From a virus, in the IMG/VR virus record IMGVR_UViG_3300034072_002197, positions 1 through 42,567 of that record: 42,567 nt of DNA. One strand, written 5' to 3'. Position 1 is the stretch's first letter, and each line of letters starts with the position of its first letter. The translations under genes and the position numbers were made by a program. Positions 11,727 through 28,170 of the stretch are shown piece after piece. The notes below the pieces were generated by a model that was not told where the DNA came from, searched no databases, and saw nothing but the letters and a program-made list of their open reading frames with translations.

Positions 11727-11728
11727 AG

Positions 11729-12310
11729 ATGAGCCAAGTTGATGGATTTACGGTCACTGAGTGGTGCATCCTTCGAACATCGCCATCGCAGACACTGAGA
11801 CTTGCCTCCGCACTATCGGAAGCAGGGTACGCTGCGTGGACGCCGACAGAGATCGCAACGCGCCGAATGCCTCGTTCGCGCAAGCGCATAGAGCGGCCCA
11901 TTCCGATTACCCCGTCGTTTGTATTTGTCTCGCGTGACAGGCTGACCGAGTTGATCGCATTGGCGCGGTCAGCATCGTTGAACCATCTCATTTGGGACAA
12001 GGAGCAGCGTCGCATGGTGCAGCGTGGCTTCCCGCAGTTCACTGTGTTTCGGTCAATGGGGGCTTATCCTCGCATTCCGGATGCGAGCCTCAATCCATTG
12101 CGGTCAATTGAGCGGAGGCGAAAGCCGGCGGTTAAGCCGACGTCCTTCGCGATCGGTGACCAAGTGCAATATCCTGATGCTGGGTTCGAGGGGCTGACTG
12201 GAAAGGTTGAGGGGATCAAGGGCCGCTACACACTGGTGCAATTCCCCGGCTTGCCCATCGCAGTCCAGATCGACCCTCGCTACCTGCAGCCAGTAAAGCA
12301 CGCCGCTTGA
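11729..12310 (+). CDS. NusG-like transcription antitermination protein
   Basis: 193 aa from ATG 11729 (GGGG ribosome-binding site). Residues 8-80 resemble the NusG N-terminal domain (TEWCILRTSPSQTLRLASAL, then PITPSFVFVS). The C-terminal part is a KOW module (FAIGDQVQYPDAGFEGLTGK, VEGIKGRYTLVQF). NusG paralogues such as RfaH bind RNA polymerase and let it read through terminators. Placed between replication and packaging genes, it is a plausible functional equivalent of lambda Q for late transcription. It might also help transcription pass the terminator at the left edge of the nested element, which is inference. Confidence 0.8.
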   Translation: MSQVDGFTVTEWCILRTSPSQTLRLASALSEAGYAAWTPTEIATRRMPRSRKRIERPIPITPSFVFVSRDRLTELIALARSASLNHLIWDKEQRRMVQRGFPQFTVFRSMGAYPRIPDASLNPLRSIERRRKPAVKPTSFAIGDQVQYPDAGFEGLTGKVEGIKGRYTLVQFPGLPIAVQIDPRYLQPVKHAA

Positions 12311-12312
12311 CC

Positions 12313-12465
12313 ATGAGTCTCCATATGGGTTACACAATAGACACAGCGCTGCCGCTTTCGAACTTGGGCAAGCATCGTGTGGACCTCGGTCCCTGGCCCC
12401 CGGAAGAGATCGCCGCCCTGATGCGCTACCCATATCGGAGATGCTCCGAGCGGGATCCCGAATGA
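12313..12465 (+). CDS. 50-aa hypothetical protein coupled to the HNH gene
   Basis: Encodes MSLHMGYTIDTALPLSNLG... ending SERDPE, 50 aa. Its stop overlaps the HNH start (ATGA at 12462-12465) and it begins 3 bp after the NusG-like gene. Length and coupling suggest a real small gene; no domain is visible. Confidence 0.5.
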   Translation: MSLHMGYTIDTALPLSNLGKHRVDLGPWPPEEIAALMRYPYRRCSERDPE

Positions 12466-12788
12466 TGTCCTTTCACCGCGACGCAAAACGCACGACGACG
12501 GAACGGGGCTACGGCTGGCGCCATCAGAGGATGCGCGCCCTTGTGCTCCGAGAAGAGCCGCTCTGCCGTTTCTGCATGAAGCGGGAGCCTCCACTCTACG
12601 CACCCTCGGTCATAGCTGACCATATCAAGCCTAAGGCTGAGGGCGGCTCGGACGATCGAGAGAACTACCAAGGACTGTGCCAGTCCTGCTCAGACGCCAA
12701 GACGGCTGACGAAGCAGCACGAGCGCGAGGTGCCCGGGCACCGCGGCGTCGTGTCGATATAGGAGTGGACGGATGGCCGAAGCAGTGA
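12462..12788 (+). CDS. HNH endonuclease, packaging-associated
   Basis: 108 aa. Zinc-type HNH fold signature: C35-x-x-C38 (CRFC), D53-H54 in IADHIKP, N68 in RENYQ, and C73-x-x-C76 followed by DAK. The final histidine usually seen after the second cysteine pair is Ser here (CSDAKT), so the third metal ligand is altered. In HK97-like phages an HNH protein beside the terminase is needed for cos cleavage, and this gene lies just upstream of the presumed cos region. Start at 12462, though the second ATG (12465) is possible. Confidence 0.85.
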   Translation: MMSFHRDAKRTTTERGYGWRHQRMRALVLREEPLCRFCMKREPPLYAPSVIADHIKPKAEGGSDDRENYQGLCQSCSDAKTADEAARARGARAPRRRVDIGVDGWPKQ

Positions 12789-12968: not shown

Positions 12969-13055
12969 GGAGGGGGGATGTCGGAAAATTGGGGGTGTAA
13001 GGCCTCCTGACCGGTGTCGGCCAAAAATCCGCGCAAAACCACATTAAATGTCCGG
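12969..13055. other. Probable cos / packaging region of the main phage
   Basis: Non-coding stretch directly upstream of the small terminase gene, the usual place for cos in HK97-like phages. It starts with GGAGGGGGG (12969-12977), then CCTCCTGACCGGTGTCGGCC (13003-13022) and an AT-containing segment ending GTCCGG (13055). The block recurs at 19814-19900 in the nested element with the same internal spacing, 49 of 53 bases identical over 13003-13055. Repetition of a non-coding block at this position is strong support for a terminase recognition site. The exact cut is not determined. Confidence 0.7.
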
Positions 13056-13066
13056 AGTGCTTCAAT

Positions 13067-13468
13067 ATGGCCAAGCCAGGAGCGAAGCCGAAGGCTGCGC
13101 ACCTGCGTATAGTCGACGGCACCCATAGAGCGACCCGCCACGGCGACGCAGCCAAAGCTAAAGAGATCATCGAGGCGACTGCAGACAAGTTCGGTCGGCT
13201 GACGAAGCCCAGCTACCTCAAGGGCGAAGCTGCGACAGCGTGGAAGCGCTACATCGAACCGGCCGGCTGGTTGGACGCCTCGCGAGAGGCCGCGGCAATT
13301 GCCTTCTGCGAACTCTGGAAAGAATTCCGCTTCAATCCTGCGGGCTTCCCCGCGTCGAAGCACGGACAAATGCGCGCCTACATGAGTGAGCTTGGCCTGA
13401 CCGACGAGCGCAATCGCGGAGATCAGGATGGCGGCGAGGAAGAAGACGAGTTCTTCGGGCGAGACTGA
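13067..13468 (+). CDS. terS: Terminase small subunit
   Basis: 133 aa, P27-like phage small terminase: basic N-terminus (MAKPGAKPKAAHLRIVDGTH) then a helical region with KGEAATAWKRYIEPAGWLD, typical of this family. It recognises the packaging site and recruits the large subunit. ATG 13067 with GGAG 9 nt upstream; the GGAG belongs to the end of the cos-like block. It overlaps the large terminase by 41 bp. Confidence 0.88.
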   Translation: MAKPGAKPKAAHLRIVDGTHRATRHGDAAKAKEIIEATADKFGRLTKPSYLKGEAATAWKRYIEPAGWLDASREAAAIAFCELWKEFRFNPAGFPASKHGQMRAYMSELGLTDERNRGDQDGGEEEDEFFGRD

Positions 13469-15287
13469 CCGCGCGACCGCATACGCTAAGGCCGTTGTCG
13501 CTGGCGAAATCGTCGCCGGGCCGCACGTCCGAAATGCTTGCCGCCGACACCTCGATGACCTGCAGCGCGGACATGAGCGGGGACTGCGCTACGATCGCGA
13601 AGCAGCGGCGCGCGGCATCCGGTTCTACGAAGAACGGCTGCGGTTGAACGACGGCCAGTTCGAAGGTCTGCCTTTCAAGCTGCACGCGAGCCAGGCGTTC
13701 AAGACTGGTTCGATCTTCGGCTGGAAACGCAAGGACGGCACACGCCGCTTCCGCCGCGCCTATATCGAGGAAGGCAAGGGTAACGGCAAAAGCCCTTGGG
13801 TCGCAGGTCTCGGGCTCTACGGTCTGTGTGCTGACGGCGAAGCCGGATCGGAAGTCTACGCGGCGGCGTCAAAAAAAGATCAGGCGGGGGTATTGTTCCG
13901 CGACGCCATCAAGATGTTCAAGTCGTCGCCGACGCTAAAAGCGCGCCTCTCGGCAAGTGGTGGCGAAGGCAAGGAGCACAACCTCTCCTATCTCGCCAAG
14001 GCTTCGTTCTTCCGGCCGATCAGTCGTGAGGCGGGCCGCACCGGTTCGGGCCCTCGACCACACTTCGCGTTGTGTGACGAAGTTCACGAAATGCCCGATC
14101 GCACCATCGTCGAGATGCTGGAACGCGGCTTCAAGTTCCGACGTCAGCCCTTGCTGGCGATGATCACCAACAGCGGCAGCGACCGCAACAGCTTCTGCTA
14201 CGAGCAGCACGAGCATGCGATCAGGGTTGCGGCTGGCAATCCTGATGCGAAGGACGACGACCCGACCTATCTGGGTGAGCCGCTCGACGACAACACTTTC
14301 GCGTTCGTATGCTCGCTTGATCCCGGCGATGACCCGCTCAATGACCCGTCGTGCTGGCCGAAGGCGAACCCGCTGCTCGGCGTCACGATCACGGAGGACT
14401 ATCTCGCCGACGTCGTGAAGCAGGCGAAGCAGATGCCTGGCGCGTTGAACGGTATCCTTCGACTGCACTTCTGCGTGTGGACCGATGCTGAGACGGCATG
14501 GATGACGCGGGACGTTCTTGAGCCGTGCCTCGCTGAGTTCGACCCTACCGAGCATTACGGCAAGCAAATATTCGACGGCATCGACCTTTCGCAGAACAAG
14601 GACATCACTGCGAAGGCCAGCGTCTGCCAGACCGGTGTTGTCGAAGAAGGGCCACACGCTGGCAAGCCCATGTTCGACGCTTGGGTCGAGGCATGGACGC
14701 CAGGCGATACCGTCGCGGCGCGAACCTTGCGAGACAAAGCGCCTTATGACGTTTGGGTTCAGCAGGGATTTCTATCAGCGCCACAGGGCGCCAGTATCAG
14801 TTACCGCCATGTCGCGCAGGCGCTGGCCGAGGACACGCACAACTACGACCTCGTGGCTGCGGCCTACGACCGATACGCATTCAAGCGGGGTCTTGAGCCG
14901 GAGTGCGATGAGCTCGGCCTATCGATCGAGTTCGTGGAGCATCCGCAGGGCGGCACCAAAAAGGGCAAGCCCACTGAGGCAATGATCGAGGCGGCAGAAG
15001 TCGCCGATCGCGAGCCTGAGGGTCTGTGGATGCCGATGAGCGTCCGGCAATTCGAAGAGCTGGTTCTTGAGCGGCGAATCCGCATCCGCGACAATCCGGT
15101 GGTCATTTCCGCGATCATGAGCGCGGTGACGGCATCGGATCGCTGGGGCAACTACTGGCTGGCAAAGGAGCGCGCCGTGAACAAGATCGACTGCGCCGTT
15201 GCGCTCTGCATGGCCGTCGGTGTCGCGCTCGCTTACGGTGAGGCCGAGGCTGACGGCATCAATGCTCTGCTTGCGAGCCTCGCATGA
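13428..15287 (+). CDS. terL: Terminase large subunit
   Basis: 619 aa, HK97-like two-domain packaging motor. ATPase: Walker A at residues 114-122 (EEGKGNGKS), Walker B with D217-E218 in FALCDEVHE. RNase-H-like nuclease: first catalytic acid D386 in FDGIDLSQNKD, later acids around DRYAFKR and NKIDCAVA. It cuts DNA at cos and pumps it into the prohead. Start ATG 13428 with GGAG upstream. Full length for the family. It is the only large terminase in the window, so the nested element would have to use it. Confidence 0.95.
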   Translation: MAARKKTSSSGETDRATAYAKAVVAGEIVAGPHVRNACRRHLDDLQRGHERGLRYDREAAARGIRFYEERLRLNDGQFEGLPFKLHASQAFKTGSIFGWKRKDGTRRFRRAYIEEGKGNGKSPWVAGLGLYGLCADGEAGSEVYAAASKKDQAGVLFRDAIKMFKSSPTLKARLSASGGEGKEHNLSYLAKASFFRPISREAGRTGSGPRPHFALCDEVHEMPDRTIVEMLERGFKFRRQPLLAMITNSGSDRNSFCYEQHEHAIRVAAGNPDAKDDDPTYLGEPLDDNTFAFVCSLDPGDDPLNDPSCWPKANPLLGVTITEDYLADVVKQAKQMPGALNGILRLHFCVWTDAETAWMTRDVLEPCLAEFDPTEHYGKQIFDGIDLSQNKDITAKASVCQTGVVEEGPHAGKPMFDAWVEAWTPGDTVAARTLRDKAPYDVWVQQGFLSAPQGASISYRHVAQALAEDTHNYDLVAAAYDRYAFKRGLEPECDELGLSIEFVEHPQGGTKKGKPTEAMIEAAEVADREPEGLWMPMSVRQFEELVLERRIRIRDNPVVISAIMSAVTASDRWGNYWLAKERAVNKIDCAVALCMAVGVALAYGEAEADGINALLASLA

Positions 15288-17221: not shown

Positions 17222-18457
17222 ATGAAAAAGAATGCCCTTTACGGCGCACTTCGCGCCGCCGGTGCCTATGGCATCATGACCAAGAACGAAGCGCGCCTCG
17301 GCCGCTATATCCGCGACGGCGAAGGTCACCCGACTGGCACCAAGTCGGTTGAGCAGTTGGCCGACGATCTTCGCAAGTCGATCGATGCCAAGCAGGCCGA
17401 AGTCCTCAAGAAGGCAGACGAAGCCCTTACCGAGGCAAAGACTGCGGGCTCGCTGTCGGCCGAGACGAAGAAGTCGGTCGACGAGATGCTGACTGGCGTG
17501 AACGTCATGCGCGAGCAGCTGAAGGCGCTCGAACAGAAGATGGCGCGCAAGCCCGGCGAGGGCGAGGACGAGGTCAAGTCCTACGGCGGCCAAGTGATCG
17601 GCAGCGATCGCTTCAAGTCGTATCTCGACAATGGCGCGCAGGGCACGATCAAGTTCGAACTCAAGGATTCGAACCGCGTCAAAGCGATCACCGCGGCTCA
17701 GGCAGCCGCATGGAGCGAACGCGATCCGACGATCACCTCGCTGCCGCAGCGTACGCTCACCATTCGTGATCTACTCACCGTGGTTCCGACCTCTGGCGGC
17801 AGCGTGGACTATGCTCGCCAGACCACCCGCACCAACAATGCGGCCGTCGTTGCGGAAGGCGCGACCAAGCCGACCAGCGCTTACATCTGGGAGCAGGTGA
17901 ACGCTCCGGTTCGCGTGATCGCACACCTTGCCAAACTCACCCGGCAGGCGCTCGAAGACTCGGCGCAGCTGCAGGGCGAAGTTGACAGCGAGATGCGTTA
18001 TGGTCTGGCACTCGCTGAAGAAGGCGAACTGCTTACCGGCGACGGTACCGGACAGCACCTCACCGGCATCAACACCAACGCCACCGCGTTCGCTGCAGCG
18101 ATCGCAATCGTCGGCGCCACCGAGATCGATGTCATTCGCCTTGCCCTGCTCCAGGCAGAGCTCGCTCTCTATCCGACAGACGGCGTCGTCCTGAACCCGG
18201 CCGACTGGGCCGCGATCGAGATGACCAAGACGACCGACGGTGCATACATCTTCGCGAACCCGATGATGCTTGCCGGGCCGCGCCTGTGGGGCAAGCCGGT
18301 CGTCTCCACGCCAGCACAGACGATGCGCAAGTTTACGGTGGGCGGCTTCAAGCTGCAGACCCTCTACGACCGCATGGCCCCCGAGGTCGTCATTGCATCC
18401 GAGAACTCGGATGACTTCGAAAAGAATCTTTACACGGTGCAACGCGAAGTTGCATAA
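17222..18457 (+). CDS. Major capsid protein 1, C-terminus replaced by the nested insertion
   Basis: 411 aa HK97-fold capsid protein. Residues 1 to about 120 form the helical scaffold region with a long Lys/Glu/Ala coil. The body includes RNTNNAAVVAEGA-like and LAEEGELLTGDGTGQHL segments. It matches MCP2 up to EKNLYT, but then ends VQREVA instead of continuing. The missing 29 codons of the family C-terminus (MRCEERVAL... LIYGDF) are found at 28027-28113, behind integrase 2. The last codons 18436-18457 belong to the inserted element. The truncated protein lacks a strand region shared with MCP2 and may not assemble. Excision would restore a 434-aa protein in frame. Confidence 0.93.
   Translation: MKKNALYGALRAAGAYGIMTKNEARLGRYIRDGEGHPTGTKSVEQLADDLRKSIDAKQAEVLKKADEALTEAKTAGSLSAETKKSVDEMLTGVNVMREQLKALEQKMARKPGEGEDEVKSYGGQVIGSDRFKSYLDNGAQGTIKFELKDSNRVKAITAAQAAAWSERDPTITSLPQRTLTIRDLLTVVPTSGGSVDYARQTTRTNNAAVVAEGATKPTSAYIWEQVNAPVRVIAHLAKLTRQALEDSAQLQGEVDSEMRYGLALAEEGELLTGDGTGQHLTGINTNATAFAAAIAIVGATEIDVIRLALLQAELALYPTDGVVLNPADWAAIEMTKTTDGAYIFANPMMLAGPRLWGKPVVSTPAQTMRKFTVGGFKLQTLYDRMAPEVVIASENSDDFEKNLYTVQREVA
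18428..18435 (+). other. Left attachment core (attL) of the nested element
   Basis: CTTTACAC, codons Leu-Tyr and part of Thr of the capsid gene, identical to 28018-28025. The match extends leftward as AGAA plus one mismatched base. Sequence to the left is helper capsid gene and to the right is element. The core is in the same codon phase at both ends. Confidence 0.82.
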
Positions 18458-18480
18458 AACCTAGCGTTTTCAGCACTTTA

Positions 18481-18503
18481 GGGGCCTTCGGGCCCCATTT
18501 TTT
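18481..18503 (+). terminator. Rho-independent terminator just inside the element
   Basis: GGGGCC-TTCG-GGCCCC forms a perfect 6-bp GC stem with a stable TTCG tetraloop, followed by ATTTTTT. It lies 24 bp after the truncated MCP1 stop and would end helper late transcription inside the element's left edge, separating helper head genes from downstream genes while the element is integrated, unless antitermination overrides it. Confidence 0.85.
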
Positions 18504-18601
18504 GCGCAATTCCGCTTTCCCCATCCACCCCCGTGAAAACCGCAGTTTTCCGCCACTTTTGAAAGCGTCCCGGCTGCTCTGTTGCGCAACAGTTGCGCAA
18601 C
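18502..18601. promoter_or_regulatory. TTGCGCAA palindromic sites, left arm of the element
   Basis: TTGCGCAA occurs at 18502-18509 and twice in tandem as GTTGCGCAAC (18581-18590 and 18592-18601), 11 bp apart, about one helical turn. The last is followed by GG, giving TTGCGCAACGG, which recurs identically at the right end (27973-27983). The tandem pair ends 20 bp before the ATG of the excisionase-like gene, so it could serve both as autoregulatory operator and as recombination arm site. An inverted repeat GAAAAC/GTTTTC (18535-18550) lies between. Confidence 0.6.
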
Positions 18602-18621
18602 GGTCGGGCAAGGAGACCACC

Positions 18622-18843
18622 ATGGCCGAAGTCAACGAAGAGTCCCGCGCGGACCTGCTCTATGGCGTTCCTGCGATCGCCGCTCACCTCGGGCTGACCG
18701 ACAAGCAGGTCTATCACATGCGCGATCGGGACAAGCTGCCGACGTTCAAGATGGGCGGCAAGGTCTGCGCTCTGCGCTCTGCGCTGGCGAGGCACTTCGC
18801 CGACCTCGAAGCCAAGGCAACCGCAGGGAAGGTCGACCAATGA
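18622..18843 (+). CDS. Excisionase-type helix-turn-helix protein of the nested element
   Basis: 73 aa from ATG 18622 (AAGGAG 6 nt upstream). The frame extends upstream through the arm sites, but only this start has a proper ribosome-binding site. An HTH_17/excisionase-like fold at residues 12-60: LLYGVPAIAAHLGLTDKQVY, then LPTFKMGGKVCALRSAL. Proteins of this type bind DNA as excisionases or regulators of element genes. It is the first gene inside the left end and is coupled to the next gene (ATGA). Confidence 0.8.
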   Translation: MAEVNEESRADLLYGVPAIAAHLGLTDKQVYHMRDRDKLPTFKMGGKVCALRSALARHFADLEAKATAGKVDQ

Positions 18844-19046
18844 CCGCGCTGATACAGATACCGCACCGCGCCAAGCTGCGCGCGGTACTGGTGAAGCGCT
18901 CAGGCACCGGTTGGCGCGTCGGGATAGGATCGGTCCTGTCAGGGGCCTTCGAGGCCGACAGCACCGGTTACAGCAACGAGCGCCAAGCCGAAACCGCAGC
19001 GCTTCGCCTGGCTGATGCGCACGACCTGATGGCGCTGCAGGATTGA
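18840..19046 (+). CDS. Small hypothetical protein of the element
   Basis: 68 aa, ATG 18840 overlapping the previous stop. Basic N-terminal half (IPHRAKLRAVLVKRSGTGWR) and an acidic, Ala-rich C-terminal helix (AETAALRLADAHDLMAL). No recognised domain. The coupling to the HTH gene supports expression. Confidence 0.6.
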   Translation: MTALIQIPHRAKLRAVLVKRSGTGWRVGIGSVLSGAFEADSTGYSNERQAETAALRLADAHDLMALQD

Positions 19047-19052
19047 GGCCAG

Positions 19053-19171
19053 TGTCGCAACTGTCGCAACTGTCGCACCTTGCTCCGTATATCCCGCAAA
19101 CGCTGGGCTTCCGGCCTGCTGTCGCAGAGTCGTGCGACAGCGCCTGCGACAGCGCGGCAAGGGCCGCGACA
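19053..19171. repeat. Seven-copy TGTCGCA / TGCGACA array of the nested element
   Basis: Direct copies start at 19053, 19062, 19071 and 19120. Inverted copies start at 19133, 19145 and 19165 (CGCGACA). The pair 19120/19133 forms a perfect 7-bp dyad with a 6-bp spacer. Offsets are 0, 9, 18, 67, 80, 92, 112, nearly those of the main-phage array. It fills the gap before the HTH gene at 19171, whose ATG overlaps the last copy, so it may be that gene's operator or part of an origin. Confidence 0.72.
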
Positions 19172-19533
19172 TGAGCAAGGAAGCGGTGGAATGGGCCGCC
19201 CGCATGATCCCAGACAACCCGCCTGACAAGCTGGTGCTGTGGTGCATCGCGCACTGCCACAACAAGGGAAGCGGCATCGCCTATCCGTCGGTCGCTGCGA
19301 TCATGGCTTTCACCGGCTATCGGCGCACGGCGGTGCAGGAAGCCCTGACGCGCCTGCACAAGGCAGGCTTGATCCTCGACACCGGCGACAGGCGAGGACG
19401 TACCGGACAGGTTAAGGTCTGGGCCCTTCCTCTGTCCGAACCGATCGGCAAGGCCAAGCCTGCGCCAGTCCGAAAGGATGCATCTGATGCACCCTTGGAC
19501 CCTGATGACCCAGCCGCCGACCGAGAGTTCTAA
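19171..19533 (+). CDS. Helix-turn-helix replication-type protein of the element
   Basis: 120 aa from ATG 19171 (AAGGG upstream). A winged HTH of the HTH_36 type, as in the N-terminal DNA-binding domain of phage replication initiators, spans about residues 20-90: AYPSVAAIMAFTGYRRTAVQ, EALTRLHKAGLIL. The C-terminus is short, acidic and Pro-rich. No helicase-loading domain is visible, so it may be only the DNA-binding part of an initiator. Position between the TGTCGCA array and three iterons supports a replication role. It could also be a plain repressor. Confidence 0.7.
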   Translation: MSKEAVEWAARMIPDNPPDKLVLWCIAHCHNKGSGIAYPSVAAIMAFTGYRRTAVQEALTRLHKAGLILDTGDRRGRTGQVKVWALPLSEPIGKAKPAPVRKDASDAPLDPDDPAADREF

Positions 19534-19665
19534 GGGTCCGCTAGACGGCTTCTTAGCCAGTGCAAAGGGTCCGCTAAACGCACCCTTAAAGGGTCCGCCA
19601 AACGGACACGGAACTATATCTATAAGAGATACCTAAGCTGCACCGTAGTGAAACGTAGGTGCAGC
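19532..19665. repeat. Iterons, AT-rich segment and inverted repeat: candidate replication origin of the element
   Basis: Three direct repeats of AAGGGTCCGCYARACG lie at 19532-19547, 19565-19580 and 19589-19604. The third overlaps a perfect palindrome ACCCTT-A-AAGGGT (19582-19594). Next is an AT-rich run around 19611-19635 (ACTATATCTATAAGAGATAC). GCTGCACC/GGTGCAGC (19637-19644 and 19658-19665) closes the region. Iterons beside an initiator-type gene plus an AT-rich unwinding zone are the usual makeup of an origin. The rest of the 509-bp gap (19534-20042) holds no credible gene, only the cos-like copy. Confidence 0.6.
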
Positions 19666-19813
19666 GTTGATAGGTAGCGCGTGCGCGAGAGGCGTGTCGC
19701 TCACCTTGTGGCGGCTCCACGCGCAAGCTCTGCCACGACAGGACAGGGCAAGGTCGATGGACGCTCCGCTCGCTTGCGCGGCGTCGCTCCGCGCTTGGCA
19801 GATGGATAGCCGG

Positions 19814-19900
19814 GGAGGGGGGTGGGAGCAAAATGCGCCGCCCCAACCCTCCTGACCGGTGTCGGCCTGAAACTCGCGCAAAACCACATTAAATGTCCGG
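19814..19900. other. Copy of the helper cos-like region inside the element
   Basis: GGAGGGGGG (19814-19822), then an AAAAT at the same internal offset as the helper copy. CCTCCTGACCGGTGTCGGCC (19848-19867) is identical to 13003-13022. The final 33 bases differ at four positions and end in the same GTCCGG. Both copies have 34 bp between the starts of the G-rich block and the CCTCCTGACC block. No terminase gene follows here. A helper packaging signal in an element without terminase is the hallmark of packaging parasitism. Confidence 0.75.
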
Positions 19901-20042
19901 GCTTGCCTATTCTGGCTCCGGCCGCCGCGCTGCAGATTGGCCAATCTGGCGCAATCAATCTGCAAAAGCGTCAATTTCAGGTCCGCATCGGTCAGGGGCC
20001 CGATGCTCCCCCATTTTCCACCACCCCCCCGAAGGAACGACC

Positions 20043-20300
20043 ATGTCGAGCGAAACGATGTTTGAATCCGGCACCCTGACGCCTGAGCAGTACGAGCAGT
20101 CCACCATGGTGCAAGGCGAAGTCCTAGCGCTGATGAAGGGGCTGGTGCGTGAGGGCGTAGACTACCGAATTGTATCGGTGGGCGTCTCTACCGCGCTCGC
20201 GGACATGATTTCATCCATCTGCGGGGCAGGCGCGGTGCCGGTGCACTTCGCGCGCCTGTCGGCCTACACGATGCACCTGGGGCCGCCGCGCACGAACTGA
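20043..20300 (+). CDS. Small hypothetical protein between cos copy and protease 2
   Basis: 85 aa from ATG 20043 with AAGGAA 7 nt upstream. The frame extends upstream through the cos-like block, but that part is not coding. No recognised domain. It includes a Glu-rich N-terminus (TLTPEQYEQSTMVQGEV) and a helical middle. It occupies the place that terminase and portal genes hold in the main phage. A role in redirecting packaging is possible but only by position. Confidence 0.6.
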   Translation: MSSETMFESGTLTPEQYEQSTMVQGEVLALMKGLVREGVDYRIVSVGVSTALADMISSICGAGAVPVHFARLSAYTMHLGPPRTN

Positions 20301-20349
20301 GCGCGCTTGCAAATCGTCCAATTTCACCGTATTGGTTTGCTCGTTGGAA

Positions 20350-20397
20350 GCGCGGGTGTCCGCGCGACCGCACCGACTTTCTCGCGGGTGTCCGCGC
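20350..20397 (+). repeat. Two copies of a 15-bp palindromic repeat upstream of protease 2
   Basis: CGCGGGTGTCCGCGC at 20351-20365 and 20383-20397. Each copy folds as CGCGG-GTGT-CCGCG (extended to GCGCGG/CCGCGC in the first, 20350-20365). They lie in the 142-bp gap before the head genes of the element and could be RNA hairpins or operators for the head module. Confidence 0.5.
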
Positions 20398-20442
20398 CGG
20401 TCGGCTGGAAAACGAGCAATGCTCGACAGTCGAGGTGTGCGC

Positions 20443-21075
20443 ATGAACCACGTAAGCTCCCCATTTGAAATCAAGCAATTGTCCGACGGCGGCCAGATTG
20501 AGGGCTTGCTCGCCGGATTTGGCAACGTCGACAGCTACGGCGACGTCATCCAGAAGGGCGCATTTTCGCGAACGCTGGCTGCGCGTTCGCGGCCACTCCC
20601 GATGCTGTTGCAGCACGATATTACCCGACCAATCGGGGTCTGGACGCAATGGCAGGAATCGGACGCAGGTCTCCACGTAAAAGGGGAGATTGTCCTTGGC
20701 ACGCAGGATGGCCGCGAGGCCCATGCCTTGGCGAAGGCCGGGGCGCTGACCGGTCTCTCGATCGGCTATCGCGAGGTCAAAGCTGCGAAAAATCCGCAGA
20801 CGGGCAACCGGGATGTTTTCGAGATTGACCTGTTCGAGGGCAGTCTCGTGACCTTTCCGGCCAACCCATCCACATACTTGGACAGCGTCAAGTCGATTGG
20901 CGCCCCCAGCGATATCGAGGCCCTGCTCCGCGCAGGGGGGCTGTCTGGCCGGCAAGCAAAGGCCGCTGCCAGCGCAGCATGGAAAGCCTTCAACACACTT
21001 GGCGATGACGCAGCCGTACAAGCCGAGATGCGCGAGATTTTTGACCTGTCCGCCGCTCGGATTGCGGCTCTCTGA
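20443..21075 (+). CDS. Prohead protease 2 of the nested element
   Basis: 210 aa from ATG 20443 (GAGG upstream). The frame upstream is open but covers the repeats. S78-type catalytic residues are present: H58 in MLLQHDITRPIG and S106 in LTGLSIGYREVK. The FEGSLVTFPANPS segment corresponds to the VSIVTFGALG region of protease 1. The two proteases are clearly homologous but diverged, so this is not a recent copy. It should mature MCP2, which follows 14 bp downstream. Confidence 0.9.
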   Translation: MNHVSSPFEIKQLSDGGQIEGLLAGFGNVDSYGDVIQKGAFSRTLAARSRPLPMLLQHDITRPIGVWTQWQESDAGLHVKGEIVLGTQDGREAHALAKAGALTGLSIGYREVKAAKNPQTGNRDVFEIDLFEGSLVTFPANPSTYLDSVKSIGAPSDIEALLRAGGLSGRQAKAAASAAWKAFNTLGDDAAVQAEMREIFDLSAARIAAL

Positions 21076-21089
21076 AAAGGACGATGACC

Positions 21090-22313
21090 ATGAAAAAGAA
21101 TTCCATTTTCCGCCCTGCGCTCGGTCCCATGACGGCCAATGAGCGCCGCCTCGGCCGCTATATCCGCGACGGCGAAGGCCACCCTGCCGCTTTGACCAAG
21201 CAGTTCACCGACGCAGTAGAAGCGAAGCTGTCTGCGCTGAGTGACGGCGTGAAGACCGCGCTCGACAAGAGCGGCACACTCGACGTCATGCGCGAGCAGC
21301 TGAAGGCGCTCGAGCAGAAGATGGCGCGCAAGCCGGGGCCGAGCGGTGAAGCCGTGGCGCCCTCTTGGGGCAGTCAGCTGGTCGAGGCGAAGGCCGCTGA
21401 GATCCATGCGCTCAAGGACGACCGCAAGGGGCGCGTCCAGATGCAGTTCAAGACCGCCCTCACCTCTGCGACGTCCGATGCTCCGGGTTCCGCCGGGGGC
21501 CTGCTTGTCCCCGGTCGAGATGGACTGGTTGGCATGGCCCGTCGGCGGCTGACGATTCGCGACCTGCTTAACGTCATTCCGGTCACGACCGGTTCGGTCG
21601 AGTATCCGCGCCAAACCGGTCGTACCAACAACGCCGCGGTTGTAGCGGAAGGCGCGAGCAAGCCAGAATCGGACCTCAAGTACGATCTCGAAACCGTTCC
21701 GGTTCGCACGATAGCGCACTGGCTGAAAGCGTCTCGCCAGATTTTGGACGATGCTCCGCAGCTGCAGGGCGAAGTCGACAGCGAACTGCGGTATGGCCTC
21801 GCTCTCGCCGAGGAAGGCGAACTGCTCACCGGCGACGGCACCGGCCAGCATCTGTTCGGGATGATCCCGCAAGCAACGGCTTTTGCTACCTCGGTTTCGG
21901 TCTCAAACATGACCCGCATCGATGCAATTGGTCTTGCGATCCTTCAGGCGGCACTCACCGATGTAGAGCCCGACGGCATCATCATCCATCCGGCGGATTG
22001 GTGGGCCATTCGTTTGACCAAGAATGCCGACGGAGACTACGTCTTTGGCCCTCCGGGCACTTCGGTTATCCCTTCGTTGTTCGGACTGCCGCTGGTGCCG
22101 ACGAAGGCCATGGCCGCAAACAAGTTCCTCGTCGGAGCATTTAAGGCGCAGACCTTGTATGATCGCTGGGAAGCGCGCGTCGAAGTCGGATTTGTGGACG
22201 ACGATTTCACGCGCAATCTTGTGACCATCCTCGGAGAAGAGCGGATCGGCTTCGCGGCCAAGCGCCCCGAATCCCTAATCTACGGCGACTTCCTGTCGAT
22301 CCTCGGCGAGTAA
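21090..22313 (+). CDS. Major capsid protein 2 of the nested element
   Basis: 407 aa, HK97 fold, intact. ATG 21090 gives an N-terminus (MKKNSIF) matching MCP1 (MKKNALY), with AAAAGG 9 nt upstream. The scaffold part is shorter than in MCP1 but shares ERRLGRYIRDGEGHP and MREQLKALEQKMARKPG. The body shares LAEEGELLTGDGTGQHL. The end NLVTILGEERIGFAAKRPES then LIYGDF aligns without gaps to the MCP fragment behind integrase 2. At the position equivalent to the attachment core it reads CTTGTGAC rather than CTTTACAC, so it should not be a target for integrase 2. Confidence 0.93.
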   Translation: MKKNSIFRPALGPMTANERRLGRYIRDGEGHPAALTKQFTDAVEAKLSALSDGVKTALDKSGTLDVMREQLKALEQKMARKPGPSGEAVAPSWGSQLVEAKAAEIHALKDDRKGRVQMQFKTALTSATSDAPGSAGGLLVPGRDGLVGMARRRLTIRDLLNVIPVTTGSVEYPRQTGRTNNAAVVAEGASKPESDLKYDLETVPVRTIAHWLKASRQILDDAPQLQGEVDSELRYGLALAEEGELLTGDGTGQHLFGMIPQATAFATSVSVSNMTRIDAIGLAILQAALTDVEPDGIIIHPADWWAIRLTKNADGDYVFGPPGTSVIPSLFGLPLVPTKAMAANKFLVGAFKAQTLYDRWEARVEVGFVDDDFTRNLVTILGEERIGFAAKRPESLIYGDFLSILGE

Positions 22314-22320
22314 CGGAACA

Positions 22321-22395
22321 CGGCTGGCATCATCCCCCCTGCCAGCCGGGGAGCATAGGCGGCGCGCAGAAATCTCCGGTGGGCTGCGCGCCGCC
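22321..22395 (+). other. Two strong hairpins between MCP2 and TMP1
   Basis: CGGCTGGCA/TGCCAGCCG (22321-22348, 9-bp stem) and GGCGGCGCGCAG/CTGCGCGCCGCC (22358-22395, 12-bp perfect stem). Neither has a T-tract, so they are more likely mRNA processing, stability or attenuation elements than simple terminators. They occupy the place where head-tail connector genes would lie in a complete phage. Confidence 0.55.
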
Positions 22396-22418
22396 GCTCC
22401 GAACAGAAGGAATTGACC

Positions 22419-24905
22419 ATGACAACCCTTATCGGTGCGCTTCGCGTCACGCTCGGCCTCGACAGCGCAGCGTTCGAAAAGGGCGCCAGCGCTGTTGAAA
22501 AGCGCGCCAAGGGCATGGTGCGAACCGTCGAGGCTCATGGCAAGGCCATGACTGACCTCGGCAAGACCATGTCAGTAGCCGTCACCGCGCCCCTCGTTGC
22601 GTTTGGCGTGAAGTCCGTGCAGGCGGCAATGGAGTCTCGCGACGCCATGGGCCAGGTCGAAGCCGCGCTTGCGAGCATGGGGTCGGCCGCCGGGCGCACT
22701 TCAGATCAGCTTGCCGCGATGGCTGGCAACTTGATGCACAACTCGCTCTACGACGATGACGACATCCTCAGGAAGGTGACCGCTAACCTCCTGACGTTTG
22801 GCAACGTTGCGGGGGAACAGTTTGACCGGGCGCAGCAAGCTGCAGTCGATCTTGCAGCGCGTATGGGGATGGACCTGCAGGGTGCGACCCTGCTCGTGGG
22901 CAAGGCGCTGAACGACCCCATCAAGGGCATGGGCGCGCTACGCAAGGCCGGCATCCAGCTTACCGAGCAGCAGCAGCAGCAAATCAAGGCTATGGTCGCG
23001 GTCGGCAATGCGGCTGGGGCGCAGAAGGTGCTCTTGTCCGAGCTCGAGAAGCAGTTCGGTGGCAGCGCGGCAGCCGCGCAAAAGGCAAACCCGTTCGACA
23101 CTCTCAAGGATTCGGCGGCTGACTTCATGGAAGCGGTCGGGGGCCAGCTTCTCGAGATCCTGCCCAACGTTACGGCTGCGCTCACCAAGGTTATCGACGC
23201 GTTCGGTGCGCTTTCGCCCGCCATGCAGCAGGGTGTGGTCTATGGCGGGTTGCTGGCGACCGCGCTCGGCCCTGTTCTTACCATAATGGGCGCGATCACG
23301 ACCGCGACCGCGCCATTTACCGGAACCCTCGCAGCGATCGCGTCGGAACAAGGTGTCTTGGCGGCTGCGCGCGCCGGGTTCATCGGCCTTGGCGCTGCGA
23401 TCGGACCAATGCTTGCGCCGCTCGCAGCGGTCGGCGCGGCGGGCTACATCATCTACCAGAACTGGGACAAGATCGGCCCCGTAGTGTCCGACCTTTGGGC
23501 CTCGATGCAAGCCGCGCTCGGTCCGCCCCTACAAGCATTGATTTCGAACCTGACGGCGACACTCACCGAACTCTGGAACGGCCCGTTGGGCGAAAGCCTG
23601 CGCCAAGTGATCGGCCTGATAGGTGACCTTGTGGTGTGGCAGGTCAAGGCGTTCGGGCCGGTGTTCATCGCGCTCTTGCGCAGCGTGGTGGACGTGGCCG
23701 GCGGCGTACTCAGCGCGATCGGCGATGCCCTGAAGGCAGTGTCTCGATTGCTCCAGGGCGATTGGGCCGGCGCATGGGAGGCGGCAAAGAGCGCTGCGGT
23801 CAACGCGTTCAAAGCGATCAATGCGGTTTTTCTGGGATTGCCCGGCTTTGTCGCTGACGTACTAATGCGGATGGTCGGCGCTGTGAATGAGTGGATCGGC
23901 GGGAAACTCAACGCAATTTGGGAAAGCGCTGCGCACAAGATTGAGTGGGTAAAACAGCAGTTCTACGACCTGTATGACGCTGTCGTCGGTCACTCCTACA
24001 TTCCAGACATGGTCGATGGCATCGCAGCGCAGATGCTCCGCCTCGACGGCGTCATGGTCGACAAAGCTGAAGCAGCTACAGCAAAAACTAAGGCGGCCTT
24101 CCAGAAGCTGGCCGAAGAACTACAGCCGCTGATGGCGCGCCTGTTTCCTGAGGCTGTCGCGCTAAACGAGTACCGGGACAATCAGAAGACATTGGACGCG
24201 GCGCTCAACAGCAAGGATCCCCGCGTCAAACTGTCGCAGTCTCAATATGACGAGGCCAAGCGTCGGCTGCATCTCGACGGTGCGGGCCTTGATCCGACTG
24301 CTCCGCTCGGCCCCAGTGCGATCGAGGGCATCACTTCGGGCCCGATTGTGGTCGACATCGACAAAATCAATGCAGGCTTGGACCGTCTGCGCGAAACCAC
24401 GACCGGAACATCGGGGCAGGTGGGCGTGGCAACTGTTCGCATTGCCCAATCCTTCAAGGATATGGCCGACGCGACGTTGAACTCGCTTCAGAACATGGCT
24501 AGCGCAATCAAGGGCGGCGGCTTCCTTGATATCTTGGGCGCTGTAATCGGCCTAGGCCTGCAGATCGGCAGCGTCGGGGCTTTCGGGAAGGGCCTTCAGA
24601 CGAGGCTCAACAGCACGCCGAACACTACGCCGACGATTCCGCAGTATGCCAACGGCACAAACTTTCATCCTGGGGGGTGGGCAGTCGTCGGCGAGCGCGG
24701 GCCTGAAATGGTCCATCTCCCAAGAGGCTCTGCGGTGACACCAAACGAGCGACTTGGTGGCAGCGTAACCAACAACTTTACCGGCAACCTTCTGACGCCG
24801 GAATTCTGGGCCCAGATCAACACCGGGCACGCTGTTGCCGCGCAAGCTGGCGGCGAGCTGGGATATCGCAAGGTGGTCAGCAAGGGGCGGAGGCGGCTGG
24901 CATGA
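22419..24905 (+). CDS. Tape measure protein 1 of the nested element
   Basis: 828 aa from ATG 22419 (AGAAGG upstream; an in-frame TTG at 22413 is not favoured). A siphovirus tape measure with an N-terminal helical region, hydrophobic central segments (about residues 275-460) and a C-terminal tail-tip motif (GNLLTPEFWAQINTGHAVAA). Residues 3-265 differ from TMP2 at only about ten positions, and the last 40 residues are nearly identical, while the middle diverges. Tape measures set tail length and bind chaperone and tail tip through their ends, so the protein looks compatible with helper tails. No tail chaperone or major tail gene accompanies it. Confidence 0.9.
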   Translation: MTTLIGALRVTLGLDSAAFEKGASAVEKRAKGMVRTVEAHGKAMTDLGKTMSVAVTAPLVAFGVKSVQAAMESRDAMGQVEAALASMGSAAGRTSDQLAAMAGNLMHNSLYDDDDILRKVTANLLTFGNVAGEQFDRAQQAAVDLAARMGMDLQGATLLVGKALNDPIKGMGALRKAGIQLTEQQQQQIKAMVAVGNAAGAQKVLLSELEKQFGGSAAAAQKANPFDTLKDSAADFMEAVGGQLLEILPNVTAALTKVIDAFGALSPAMQQGVVYGGLLATALGPVLTIMGAITTATAPFTGTLAAIASEQGVLAAARAGFIGLGAAIGPMLAPLAAVGAAGYIIYQNWDKIGPVVSDLWASMQAALGPPLQALISNLTATLTELWNGPLGESLRQVIGLIGDLVVWQVKAFGPVFIALLRSVVDVAGGVLSAIGDALKAVSRLLQGDWAGAWEAAKSAAVNAFKAINAVFLGLPGFVADVLMRMVGAVNEWIGGKLNAIWESAAHKIEWVKQQFYDLYDAVVGHSYIPDMVDGIAAQMLRLDGVMVDKAEAATAKTKAAFQKLAEELQPLMARLFPEAVALNEYRDNQKTLDAALNSKDPRVKLSQSQYDEAKRRLHLDGAGLDPTAPLGPSAIEGITSGPIVVDIDKINAGLDRLRETTTGTSGQVGVATVRIAQSFKDMADATLNSLQNMASAIKGGGFLDILGAVIGLGLQIGSVGAFGKGLQTRLNSTPNTTPTIPQYANGTNFHPGGWAVVGERGPEMVHLPRGSAVTPNERLGGSVTNNFTGNLLTPEFWAQINTGHAVAAQAGGELGYRKVVSKGRRRLA

Positions 24906-25168
24906 TCGAACAACAAGATACCGTTCCCGCGCCTGTGTTTCAGGCGCTGGCGATGGCATTCTACTGCCTTCACGACACGCTCGTATCCAAAGGGGCGCTC
25001 GACGAGGGCGAGGTGGGGTACAATCTCAGCAGAATGAGGTCAGACGACCCGATGTTCGCTGAGACACTTCAGCGCATTCGCAACAACCTAGATTCGATGC
25101 CGTTCCGGCCACAATCGGGACCATCTCTGCGCTTGGTCGAGACTAAGGAGGCAGGTGACAATGGCTAA
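24902..25168 (+). CDS. Small hypothetical protein downstream of TMP1
   Basis: 88 aa, ATG overlapping the TMP1 stop (ATGA). Soluble, helical, acidic. The equivalent position after TMP2 holds an unrelated 196-aa tail gene that also starts ATGATCGA, suggesting a recombination joint at the end of the tape measure genes. Function unknown. Confidence 0.62.
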   Translation: MIEQQDTVPAPVFQALAMAFYCLHDTLVSKGALDEGEVGYNLSRMRSDDPMFAETLQRIRNNLDSMPFRPQSGPSLRLVETKEAGDNG

Positions 25169-25670
25169 GGTTCTTCGCGTCGTCGCCGTAGTTGCGGGCG
25201 CAGTGGCGATCGCCGTTCCCGGCCTGCAGGCGCTCGCTCCTGCGCTCATATCAGCAGGCACTGCATCCACCATTGCCACGATAGCCAGTGTGCCCGCGAC
25301 ATTGTCCGCGCTGGGCGTTCAACTCATGAACGAAGGAAATTCCCATGACCCTACAGAACGGATTCGTGCAGGCTGGCGAAGTTCGCCTCTACTCCGACAC
25401 GGCTTGGATATGCCCGGAGACTGGCGCGGTCGCGGCTTTCTTCCCAAAGGGCTTTGTCTCGCAGAACGTAGTGTTTCCCTATGCGGTAATCACGACCATG
25501 ATCGGGCCAGGCCAGTGGCCGAATCCCATGGAGCACATCGTCACGCAGGTGAACTTGGACTTGCCAGGCAACACCTCAGAGCTTCTCGATTGCCTCGCTG
25601 GATTCGCCAAGTCTTACGCGCGATCGGGAGGCCTTTGCCGCATCCTCGCGGCTTCGTTCGGGTCGAGTGA
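25155..25670 (+). pseudogene. Fragment of a tail-tip (J-like) gene
   Basis: The first 57 residues (MAKVLRVVAVVAGAVAIAVP...) match the N-terminus of the tail-tip protein at 35903 (MAKVLRGIAVVAGAVALFVP), including the ISAGTATTIATVAS-type segment. After about 25325 similarity stops and the frame merely shadows the next gene. A good AGGAGG ribosome-binding site is retained, so a short peptide may still be made. This looks like the remnant of a deletion that removed about 590 codons of the tip gene. Confidence 0.65.
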
Positions 25671-26018
25671 CGAGCGACCGCGGCTGCATTTCATCGCGTC
25701 CGACGATTCCGATTTCGCTAGGGGCTTCGAACCCATCGAATGCTCTCCTATGTGTCCTCGCACAACACCTCGCCAACATACTTGCATGCGATGTCTCAGG
25801 GCGGCTTCAATCGACAGCGCATGCTCAATCAGATCGACTCGCAGCGGTTGAGCAAGTTGTCGGCGGCTTGCGCCTTGGGTGAGGTGCATGGCGTAGGTGG
25901 GGAGGTGATGGAGATCATCGTCAGACGCGAAGGCGTTTCTGAACAGATCGTGCGAGTTTGGAACGACCGCCTCGATTGCCCCATCGATCCTAGCCGAGAC
26001 GAAGTCCTTACGGCCTGA
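25345..26018 (+). pseudogene. Tail-region hypothetical gene split by a frameshift
   Basis: ATG 25345 with AAGGAA upstream encodes a protein-like sequence (WICPETGAVAAFFPKGFVSQ ...). Near 25735 it switches to a Cys/Arg-rich shadow and ends at 25851. The sensible sequence continues in the -1 frame (25740-26018: MLSYVSSHNTSPTYLH... RVWNDRLDCPIDPS). One missing base in GAAATGCTC would explain it. It may be a true mutation, a sequencing error, or two coupled genes, since the second frame has an ATG. No equivalent exists in the main-phage tail region of this window. Confidence 0.55.
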
Positions 26019-26036
26019 GCTGCAGGCAGCGCCCTA

Positions 26037-26056
26037 CCTCCCCGGTTAAGGGGAGG
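26037..26056 (+). terminator. Hairpin after the frameshifted gene
   Basis: CCTCCCC-GGTTAA-GGGGAGG, a perfect 7-bp stem beginning 18 bp after the stop at 26018. There is no clear T-run, so termination is plausible but uncertain. The 26019-26351 gap has no credible gene. Confidence 0.45.
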
Positions 26057-26098
26057 CTTGCGCTTATGCGTCTGTGAGGGCAATGTCGTCCGTGGGCC

Positions 26099-26343
26099 TG
26101 AGAAACCCGGACCAGTGATAGCGAGTGGACCCGTTGGCGCGGTATCCGTTCGCGAATGCGAGCTTGGCGGCTCGCCTGAGGCAGCGCTTGGCGGCGCGCC
26201 CACTTCGGCTATGTAGCCGGGGGCGGCGCGCTATGTCCAGAGCGAAAGCTTAAAGGCGCGTCGGCTTGTCTCACTGGCAGGTTTCTCACCCCCGGCGATC
26301 GCCCGAAGCGGTCAACGGCCCTGAGAAAGCCGTCAACCAGTGA
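26099..26343. repeat. Three copies of a TGAGAAA...CCAGTGA composite motif
   Basis: TGAGAAA followed by CCAGTGA after 6 bp (26099-26118) and 8 bp (26322-26343), and an inverted copy with 4 bp between halves (TCACTGG...TTTCTCA, 26271-26288). They lie in the gene-free stretch upstream of the 26352 gene. They may be binding sites for an element regulator; spacing between halves is variable, which weakens the case. Confidence 0.35.
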
Positions 26344-26351
26344 GACCAAAC

Positions 26352-26726
26352 ATGTTCTATACCCCAAATTCGCCGCCCAGAGGCCCGACAGAGGCCGCTG
26401 GCGATTTCGTGGCGCGTGCACTGCCTCTCGGAGTGCCTGACAGGCCTGAAATCGCCGCGCTAGGCGAAAGCATCCTCTGCACCGCCGAATACGTCGGCTC
26501 GCTCGGCGAAGCCGTCCTGCTCTGCCTCGAAGAACTGCCCATCGAGCAACGCGGCGACAAGGTGCACCTCGCGGTCAGCCTGCTCAACCTGCTCGACGAT
26601 CAGGTGCGAATCCTGTTCGACCTCGCGGGCAAGGTAGAAGTCGCAGGTATGGAGCGCGCCGCGACCGATGCGGCGCTGTCCGACTGGATGGCCCTGAGTC
26701 CGGCAGGCACGGCCCCCTCGAAGTAA
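26352..26726 (+). CDS. Hypothetical protein next to integrase 2
   Basis: 124 aa from ATG 26352 (a GTG at 26340 would add four residues). Helical and acidic (AALGESILCTAEYVGSLGEA, then SLLNLLDDQVRILFDLAGKV), no recognised domain. A strong hairpin separates it from integrase 2. No good ribosome-binding site is seen at either start, so the start is uncertain. Confidence 0.6.
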   Translation: MFYTPNSPPRGPTEAAGDFVARALPLGVPDRPEIAALGESILCTAEYVGSLGEAVLLCLEELPIEQRGDKVHLAVSLLNLLDDQVRILFDLAGKVEVAGMERAATDAALSDWMALSPAGTAPSK

Positions 26727-26733
26727 GGCAGAC

Positions 26734-26761
26734 GTCCCGGCCGGGTTCGCCCGGTCGGGAC
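26734..26761 (+). terminator. Very stable 12-bp hairpin with TTCG loop upstream of integrase 2
   Basis: GTCCCGGCCGGG-TTCG-CCCGGTCGGGAC, twelve pairs including one G-T. It has no T-tract, so it may be a termination signal helped by other factors, or an mRNA barrier. It ends 17 bp before the integrase ATG and could insulate integrase 2 from readthrough of the head and tail genes. Confidence 0.5.
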
Positions 26762-26778
26762 AAGCACTGGAGATCAAC

Positions 26779-28014
26779 ATGGCAAGCGTGAGCAAACGCA
26801 AGTGGACCCACAAGGGCGTCGCGAGTGAGGCGTGGGTTGTGCGGTATGTGGACCGTGCCGGGAAGCAACGCTCGAAGCAATTCGACCGCAAGAAGGATGC
26901 GGACAACTACCGCACCAAGGTCGAGCACGAAAAGGCGGAGCGCGGACACATCGGTTATGTCGAGGTCAAGTCCGTCGCTGAGATTGCAAAGGCTTATGGC
27001 GCCCATGTCGATCGTCGCCTTGAAGATGCTCAGATTAAGCGCGGAACACACAAGAACATCGTGCAGGCGCTTCGCACCTCGATCCTTCCCCGGCTTGGCA
27101 AGATGCGCATTGAGGACGTCACCGCCGACCTGTGCGAGCAGTGGTTCACCGCGATCCGTTCGGAAGATGGACTTGCCGCCAAGACTGCGCAGGAGCGACT
27201 GGTAAAGCTGGGAGCAATGTTTGACTTCGCGATGCGGCGCAAGTTCGCGAGGTCTAACCCGGCTCGCGAGGCCCTGGCCAATATCGGCGGCATCAAGGCC
27301 AAGAAAATCAGGATACTCTCGCGCGATGAAATTGCAGCAATCCTGCGGGCGGCGCAGAAGCGCCGCCCCGGTCAGCATCGAAGCACGTGGCTGATGGCGA
27401 ATTGCGCGATTAACCTTGCGGCTTTCTCTGGCCTACGGTGCGGTGAAATTCTTGCCCTCCGCCTTGCAGACATCGATCTGGAGCGTCGCGTTGTGCACGT
27501 GAGGCACACGATCAACGCATGGGATGAACTCACATCTCCTAAGACCGAAAGCAGCCGACGTACTGTGCCTATCCCGGCGCACGTCGCCTCCATGCTGCGC
27601 GACTGGATTAGGGAGTATTACGTTCCCAATGACCGAACCCTCGTGTTCCGCGCGTGGCGAACACAGAACGGCAAGAGGGGAGGGGCAATTTCCATCTCGA
27701 ACTTCAACTCGGGTTACTGGCGACCTGTCACGGCTGCAGCCGGGATGGACCGGCCCGACGATCATATTCACTTCCATGCGCTGCGGCACTTCGCCGCGAG
27801 CTGGTGGCTGAAAAACCAAATGCCAATTCCTGAGGTTTCCGAACTTATGGGCCACGCCAGCCCGCAGGTAACATTGTCGATTTACGCTCACGCCATGGCT
27901 GACGATCGGGAGCGTGGCGCAGCGGTCGAGACGATGGCGCAAGCGTTCATGGGTTCACACAGTGCGCAAGAATTGCGCAACGGCCAATTTCTCTTGGAAA
28001 ATCAAGCGGCTTAG
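26779..28014 (+). CDS. int: Tyrosine integrase 2, integrase of the nested element
   Basis: 411 aa with GGAG before ATG 26779. It has an N-terminal arm-binding region with SKQFDRKKDADNY, a core-binding SAM-like domain (about residues 65-155) and the catalytic domain with R220 (SGLRCGE), K255 (SPKTESSRR), H333-x-x-R336 (HALRH), H359 (LMGHAS) and Y369 (SIYAH). All catalytic residues are present. It is not of the P4 type and is unrelated in layout to integrase 1. Its stop lies 3 bp before the attR core, as usual for integrases flanking their site. It should insert the element into CTTTACAC of the capsid gene. Confidence 0.94.
   Translation: MASVSKRKWTHKGVASEAWVVRYVDRAGKQRSKQFDRKKDADNYRTKVEHEKAERGHIGYVEVKSVAEIAKAYGAHVDRRLEDAQIKRGTHKNIVQALRTSILPRLGKMRIEDVTADLCEQWFTAIRSEDGLAAKTAQERLVKLGAMFDFAMRRKFARSNPAREALANIGGIKAKKIRILSRDEIAAILRAAQKRRPGQHRSTWLMANCAINLAAFSGLRCGEILALRLADIDLERRVVHVRHTINAWDELTSPKTESSRRTVPIPAHVASMLRDWIREYYVPNDRTLVFRAWRTQNGKRGGAISISNFNSGYWRPVTAAAGMDRPDDHIHFHALRHFAASWWLKNQMPIPEVSELMGHASPQVTLSIYAHAMADDRERGAAVETMAQAFMGSHSAQELRNGQFLLENQAA
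27962..27983. promoter_or_regulatory. TGCGCAA sites, right arm of the element
   Basis: GTGCGCAAG (27962-27970) and TTGCGCAACGG (27973-27983), the latter identical over 11 bp to the left-end site at 18593-18603. They lie inside the integrase 3' end, 35-56 bp from the attR core. Matching sites at both ends are expected of integrase or excisionase arm sites on attP. Confidence 0.55.
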
Positions 28015-28017
28015 AAC

Positions 28018-28025
28018 CTTTACAC
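28018..28025 (+). other. Right attachment core (attR) of the nested element
   Basis: CTTTACAC identical to attL. Immediately to the right ACACC-ATGC-GGTGT (28022-28035) forms a perfect inverted repeat spanning the core edge on the capsid-gene side, as often seen at tyrosine recombinase core sites. Confidence 0.82.
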
Positions 28026-28116
28026 CATGCGGTGTGAGGAGCGCGTTGCCCTGGCGATCAAGAAGCCCGGCGCACTGATCTACGGCGACTTTGACGCTGC
28101 GCTCGCGGCTGGTTGA
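28018..28116 (+). pseudogene. Separated 3' end of the main-phage major capsid gene
   Basis: In the capsid frame this reads LYT-MRCEERVALAIKKPGALI... ending YGDFDAALAAG and stop at 28114-28116. It aligns without gaps to the MCP2 end (ILGEERIGFAAKRPESLIYG). It has no start codon or ribosome-binding site of its own. Joined at the CTTTACAC core to the 5' part at 17222-18427 it gives a 434-aa capsid protein. Confidence 0.88.
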
Positions 28117-28127
28117 GCCGCACCAGG

Positions 28128-28151: not shown

Positions 28152-28170
28152 TCCTTTCAGGAGATGAACA

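Follow-up and report, generated by a model that had tools for sequence, protein, structure and literature searches.

A putative helper-embedded satellite with a copied cos region and a second, inverted cos site in the capsid gene of an HK97-like prophage

The window analysed in this work, an IMG/VR virus contig of 42,567 bp, comprises an HK97-like prophage with HNH, terS, terL, portal, S78 protease, capsid and tail genes and, on its left side, its own integrase, S24 repressor and primase. The host appears to be alphaproteobacterial, judging by best matches only. The non-coding block 12969-13055 recurs at 19814-19900, inside an insert (18436-28025) in which the initial annotation saw no terminase; neither terminase nor portal was recognised there with Pfam/PHROGs. 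Why should such an insert carry this block? The second copy had been taken for the helper's cos region duplicated in a terminase-less satellite, and every in silico test reported here agrees with that proposal.

The repetition with the same internal spacing was confirmed, and the G-rich start, the AAAAT offset, the 20-bp block and the 25-bp end listed in the initial annotation were all seen in the sequence. Reading of the two copies gave a constant offset of 6,845, the same nine opening bases (GGAGGGGGG) and AAAAT at the same position. The longest gap-free match, 13003-13055 against 19848-19900, is identical at 49 of 53 positions (BLAST E = 1.5e-17 within the contig); the cores have a 20-bp block in common, CCTCCTGACCGGTGTCGGCC, and the copies share an identical end of approximately 25 bp, CGCGCAAAACCACATTAAATGTCCGG. 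BLAST found no third match to the block in the record. The features concerned are as follows.

12441..12788 (+), helper HNH endonuclease gene directly preceding cos (Pfam HNH, 2.3e-8), comparable to HK97 gp74, HNH being at the HK97 right end
12969..13072 (+), helper cos region with a G-tract, GACCGGTGTCGG at the predicted cut (13009-13022) and the TerS site at 13034-13048 (independent cos profile, E 5.6e-10; Arg/CC class profile, E 1.5e-15)
13067..13468 (+), helper terS of the Arg21 type, VDGTHR (phrog_83 terminase small subunit, 3.4e-5)
13428..15287 (+), helper terL (TerL ATPase and nuclease Pfam domains)
19814..19913 (+), cos1, the copy of the helper cos, Arg/CC class (49/53 core, BLAST, independent cos profile E 1.5e-8, Arg/CC class profile E 2.7e-12)

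Upstream of the late operon the helper also carries a transcription antiterminator-like gene (11603-12307), which is a likely late switch.

The HK97 record ends with ...GGGGGGGGGATCAAATC...AAATGACCGCCGCCAAA and begins with GTTTG...; its terS starts at nucleotide 50 and its HNH gene lies at the right end. Ends of the HK97 type have a 10-nt 3' overhang. The helper block follows this mapped plan: the G-tract is separated by 31 bp (approximately 30 bp in the HK97 type) from GACCGGTGTCGG with its GACCG motif, terS starts about 50 bp past the predicted cut and HNH lies upstream. The minimal HK97 TerS site extends from +15 to +29 from the cut, and the C:G pair at 21 is essential (PMC11331095). By alignment this site maps to 13034-13048 in the helper, and the 15 aligned bases are the same in both copies (13034-13048 = 19879-19893); the exact cut sites were likewise placed by alignment to HK97 and should be read as predicted. 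The G-tract, GACCG, a TerS site at about +15 to +29 and HNH upstream of terS are all found in the HK97 cos/TerS system (PMC11331095, PMC9410871), but there the site is the phage's own packaging site, whereas here it has been copied into a satellite and occurs in two specificities.

An independent cos profile was built from 14 blocks of other phages, with the window excluded. In the window it ranked 12969-13072 first (E 5.6e-10) and 19814-19913 second (E 1.5e-8), followed by an inverted match at 20030-19935 (E 6.2e-5). In 792 kb of relatives all matches above 14 bits lie upstream of a terminase gene on the same strand, one 14-bit match (L088) aside, for which the terminase distance was not computed. 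Profiles of the two cos classes described below gave 97 loci of at least 15 bits in 1.7 Mb of related loci, none of them on the strand opposite the terminase genes, and therefore the alternative considered in the initial annotation, a promoter or terminator that unrelated genes share, did not hold: the matches follow terminase loci. A promoter or operator common to late operons would fit the position of both copies directly upstream of late genes. Against it stand the architecture of the mapped HK97 ends, the confinement of profile matches to terminase loci, the covariation of the block with TerS and the lack of any sigma-70 promoter match in 18300-28300; this reading has next to no probability and was rejected on the cos profile together with the TerS covariation. 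Both blocks are HK97-type cos regions, at which cleavage and packaging are putative.

The limits of the insert were defined from the interrupted capsid gene.

17222..18457 (+), helper major capsid gene, left part (Pfam match stops at 258/280; the flanks join to a 434-aa capsid)
18428..18435 (+), attL core CTTTACAC, repeat common to both flanks
18436..28025 (+), satellite element of 9,590 bp (att cores, adjacent integrase, restored capsid frame)
18481..18496 (+), stem-loop resembling a terminator, directly inside attL
18584..18603 (+), left doubled arm-type motif, GCGCAACAGTTGCGCAACGG
27964..27983 (+), right doubled arm-type motif, GCGCAAGAATTGCGCAACGG
28018..28025 (+), attR core CTTTACAC, repeat common to both flanks
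28026..28116 (+), detached 3' part of the helper capsid gene, MRCEERVALAIKKPGALIYGDFDAALAAG and stop (frame resumption; intact in L007)

The helper capsid gene is cut at NLYT, so that its left part now ends with ...NLYTVQREVA and a stop, and its frame resumes right after the element's integrase as NLYTMRCEERVALAIKKPGALIYGDFDAALAAG and a stop. When the flanks are joined at the 8-bp core CTTTACAC, a capsid of 434 aa results, 316 residues of which are identical in the uninterrupted capsid of prophage L007, and the element was therefore delimited to 18436-28025, 9,590 bp. Near each element end a doubled TTGCGCAA motif was found, with a chance expectation of 0.04 matches in the whole window; such motifs would be expected as integrase arm sites. 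The element's predicted tyrosine integrase is what placed it in the helper capsid gene. L007 (11257-17954), the relative with the intact capsid gene, has approximately 6.5 kb of extra genes between the capsid and head-tail adaptor genes.

The contig is an IMG/VR record without read data and some sequence at 25160-26060 looks decayed, as might be expected if a second prophage had decayed here or the assembly were chimeric. This explanation is very improbable, since the insert is bordered by the 8-bp core and the doubled arm motifs, the two parts of the broken gene join in one reading frame, there is no further set of terminase, portal or tail genes, and relatives agree with the element in size and gene order.

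The following genes and repeats were recognised inside the element.

19132..19533 (+), HTH_36 replication-initiator-like gene (Pfam HTH_36, 2.1e-9; PHROG replication initiation, 1e-13)
19526..19604 (+), three iteron-like repeats AAGGGTCCGCTA, a possible origin
20043..20300 (+), small gene without significant match in family searches
20332..21075 (+), satellite S78 prohead protease, longest ORF with the likely start at about 20444 (Pfam, 1.2e-23)
21084..22313 (+), satellite HK97-fold major capsid gene with complete C-terminus (Pfam, 4.1e-55 over 1-280/280)
22419..24905 (+), satellite tape-measure protein (Pfam TMP_2)
24902..26726 (+), small genes in the interval from tape measure to integrase, with sequence that may be decayed (no confident families)
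26779..28014 (+), tyrosine integrase reading outward into attR (Pfam, 3.8e-26; 22 % local identity to the 11capE integrase)

The satellite capsid is 51 % identical to that of the helper, and its delta domain is approximately 25 residues shorter before LTIRDLL. A smaller capsid size was considered on this ground and set aside as weak, the capsid of phage L018 being equally short. In the satellite tape measure about 240 N-terminal codons and the C-terminus are helper-like and the middle is divergent, as if the ends contacting the helper had been kept matched. At the DNA level the two tape-measure genes (22419-24905 in the element, 31826-34267 in the helper) are mosaic: identity is 89-98 % across the initial 240 codons, falls to 51-77 % in the central part and reaches 84 % towards the end. 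The region 3' of the satellite tape measure (25160-26060) resembles decayed tail-gene sequence, with no confident match to the helper tail genes. No excisionase or defence genes were recognised in the element, and searches of Pfam/PHROGs found neither alpA nor a primase.

The inverted profile match corresponds to a second cos site that was absent from the initial annotation.

19941..20030 (-), cos2, inverted second cos of the Asn/GC class, with GACCGATGCGG and TTTTGCAGATTGAT (Asn/GC class profile E 1.2e-13, 45.9 bits; alignment z about 9)

The two classes were recognised in a sample of 80 terS loci, with counts made on distinct pairs. TerS residue 21 is Arg where the site reads CCA (33/33 distinct pairs) and Asn where it reads GCA (32/33), so that in 65 of 66 distinct phages the cos class (CC or GC) can be told from this residue (Fisher 2.8e-19, a p-value that ignores relatedness). 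On the best TerS tree residue 21 and cos class each change 12 times and agree in every resolved independent pair; two of the 12 co-switches lie on well-supported branches, both in the expected direction. Alignment to HK97 would place the class switch at cos base 20, adjoining the conserved C:G at 21. This near-perfect covariation in HK97-type phages is a candidate specificity code.

With the Arg/CC profile the helper cos scored 52.4 bits and cos1 41.9 bits; with the Asn/GC profile the inverted site scored 45.9 bits in comparison to 22.8-24.1 for the helper cos and cos1. The helper TerS is of the Arg21 type (VDGTHR) and the helper cos and cos1 are Arg/CC, so by these scores cos1 fits the TerS of this helper and cos2 fits the other class. 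Since cos1 and the helper are Arg/CC and cos2 is Asn/GC, the satellite seems to be built for two terminase specificities. No comparable inverted site was found in 1.7 Mb of related loci, no inverted dual cos pattern and no other satellite with two inverted cos sites in IMG/VR, and no DNA similarity to the cos1-cos2 stretch in phages.

Two readings of cos2 have to be weighed. In the first, the element would be a vehicle for two helpers: cos1 and cos2, inverted with respect to each other, would be read by mutually exclusive TerS specificities, one with Arg at residue 21 and C at cos base 20, the other with Asn and G. Either phage type could then package the satellite, which resides in the capsid gene of one of the two and contributes a capsid and a tape measure. 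We consider this proposal evenly poised. In the second, cos1 alone works; cos2 would have lost its function and would persist, by chance, from an earlier helper, cos1 having since been gained from the present one. Satellites are known to track their helpers, the present helper is closely matched by cos1 and not by cos2, and the 3' part of the element contains decayed sequence, but cos2 retains its G-tract, GACCG and TerS site, all recognisable cos parts being at the right spacing, it reaches 45.9 bits with the Asn/GC profile and obvious decay was not seen; a relic is possible, though somewhat doubtful.

Relatives of the element are few. In genome G011 (contig C6; L106 9183-19696) a 10.5-kb chromosomal island, which has a 16-17-bp repeat of the 3' end of tRNA-Ser at its borders, encodes HTH_36, protease, capsid (47 % identical to the element capsid), tape measure, a MerR-like gene and integrase. 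It has the G-tract/31-bp/GACCG motif at the same place as the element, which is a pattern match only, the profiles giving 6-8 bits. A TerL search found no co-resident helper in G011. A partial third member, L120 (IMGVR_UViG_3300005289_000423), comprises a capsid end, tape measure, MerR- and HTH_17-like genes and integrase, followed by chromosomal genes. The layout is rare: 398 genomes of the order contained one instance, and 385 genomes of the class yielded that instance again. IMG/VR yielded no close relatives of the element capsid or integrase and no exact copy of the cos string, and no DNA similarity to the left part of the element was found in plasmids. Integrase relatives in Azospirillum and Lichenicola (35-37 %) showed no similar satellite context in either record, the Azospirillum stretch being without annotation, and capsid-tape-measure matches in L009, G120, G304, G112 and G185 proved to be ordinary phages with a portal and, where the stretch reached it, a terminase.

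The G011 island bears on the possibility that the insert is a cassette serving the phage and not a parasite, by which the old capsid is inactivated and a new protease, capsid and tape measure are supplied. The embedded state does break the helper capsid gene, the element does supply a full capsid and the tape-measure ends are almost identical to those of the helper. Such a role is nevertheless improbable, as the element comes with a replication-initiator-like gene, iterons, cos sites and an integrase of its own, and the related island sits away from any prophage, in a bacterial tRNA-Ser gene. The reading we prefer, as very probably correct, is that of a helper-embedded phage satellite that would excise and be packaged from cos1 by the helper TerS/TerL, and whose inverted cos2 would serve Asn21 phages.

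As in cos-type satellites, the helper cos has been copied and no terminase of the element's own was recognised. The cf-PICIs carry their own capsid and protease as well as terminase and portal, and use helper tails; the element likewise encodes capsid and protease, but no terminase or portal was recognised in it, and it has a tape measure. SaPIbov5 is a cos SaPI whose capsid-protein homologue Ccm has a shorter delta domain and makes small heads (PMC5052747). Both elements are cos-type and encode a capsid-protein homologue with a shortened delta domain, but SaPIbov5 is a Gram-positive PICI of other gene content, is not helper-embedded and lacks a tape measure.

Satellites that are embedded in a helper and bring both a capsid gene and a copy of the cos region are already known (PMC10111431): HE-PICI 11capE, in prophage 50icd of E. 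coli NRG857c, is inserted in the capsid gene and has its own capsid and a copied cos region, and HE-PICIs have been reported from Enterobacteriaceae only (PMC10111431). The element is likewise integrated, co-oriented, in a helper late gene, the capsid gene split at NLYT, but at a different site, the C-terminal end of an HK97-type capsid. Its integrase scores 29.6 bits (22 % local identity) against that of 11capE, the clade cut-off of PMC10111431 being 400 bits, and is thus unrelated beyond the family level; it is the last gene and reads outward, whereas that of 11capE is first and reads inward. The HE-PICI order and content (Int first and inward, AlpA, Bro zone, primase) were not found, and the doubled TGTATTGC arm motif is replaced by a different doubled motif, TTGCGCAA. 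In comparison to 11capE the element adds protease, tape measure and two inverted cos sites. Membership of the HE-PICIs is ruled out by the integrase, the gene order and the missing alpA and primase, although the element works like one. Neither a protease-capsid-tape-measure set without terminase and portal nor paired inverted cos sites of two specificities was found in the literature searched, which left out most subscription papers.

The preferred reading suggests the following course of events. After induction the composite prophage would replicate and excision of the satellite at CTTTACAC would restore the helper capsid gene. Satellite multimers would then be cut and packaged from cos1 by the helper TerS/TerL, into particles that may use the satellite capsid or a mixture, with the helper portal and tail and with participation of the satellite tape measure. 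Through the inverted cos2, Asn21, GC-class phages could package the same element in the other direction. As long as the satellite stays embedded, the broken capsid gene and the stem at 18481-18496 should cause a delay in the late gene expression of the helper, an effect already proposed for HE-PICIs (PMC10111431).

With this element, helper-embedded satellites are no longer confined to the family described in Enterobacteriaceae, and its unrelated machinery makes it probable that insertion into helper late genes has had more than one origin. A pair of cos sites in opposite orientation would explain in a simple way how a satellite could come to use a wider range of helpers. The relation between TerS residue 21 and the cos base opens terminase-cos specificity in HK97-type phages to direct testing, and it could allow satellites and helpers to be paired from sequence.
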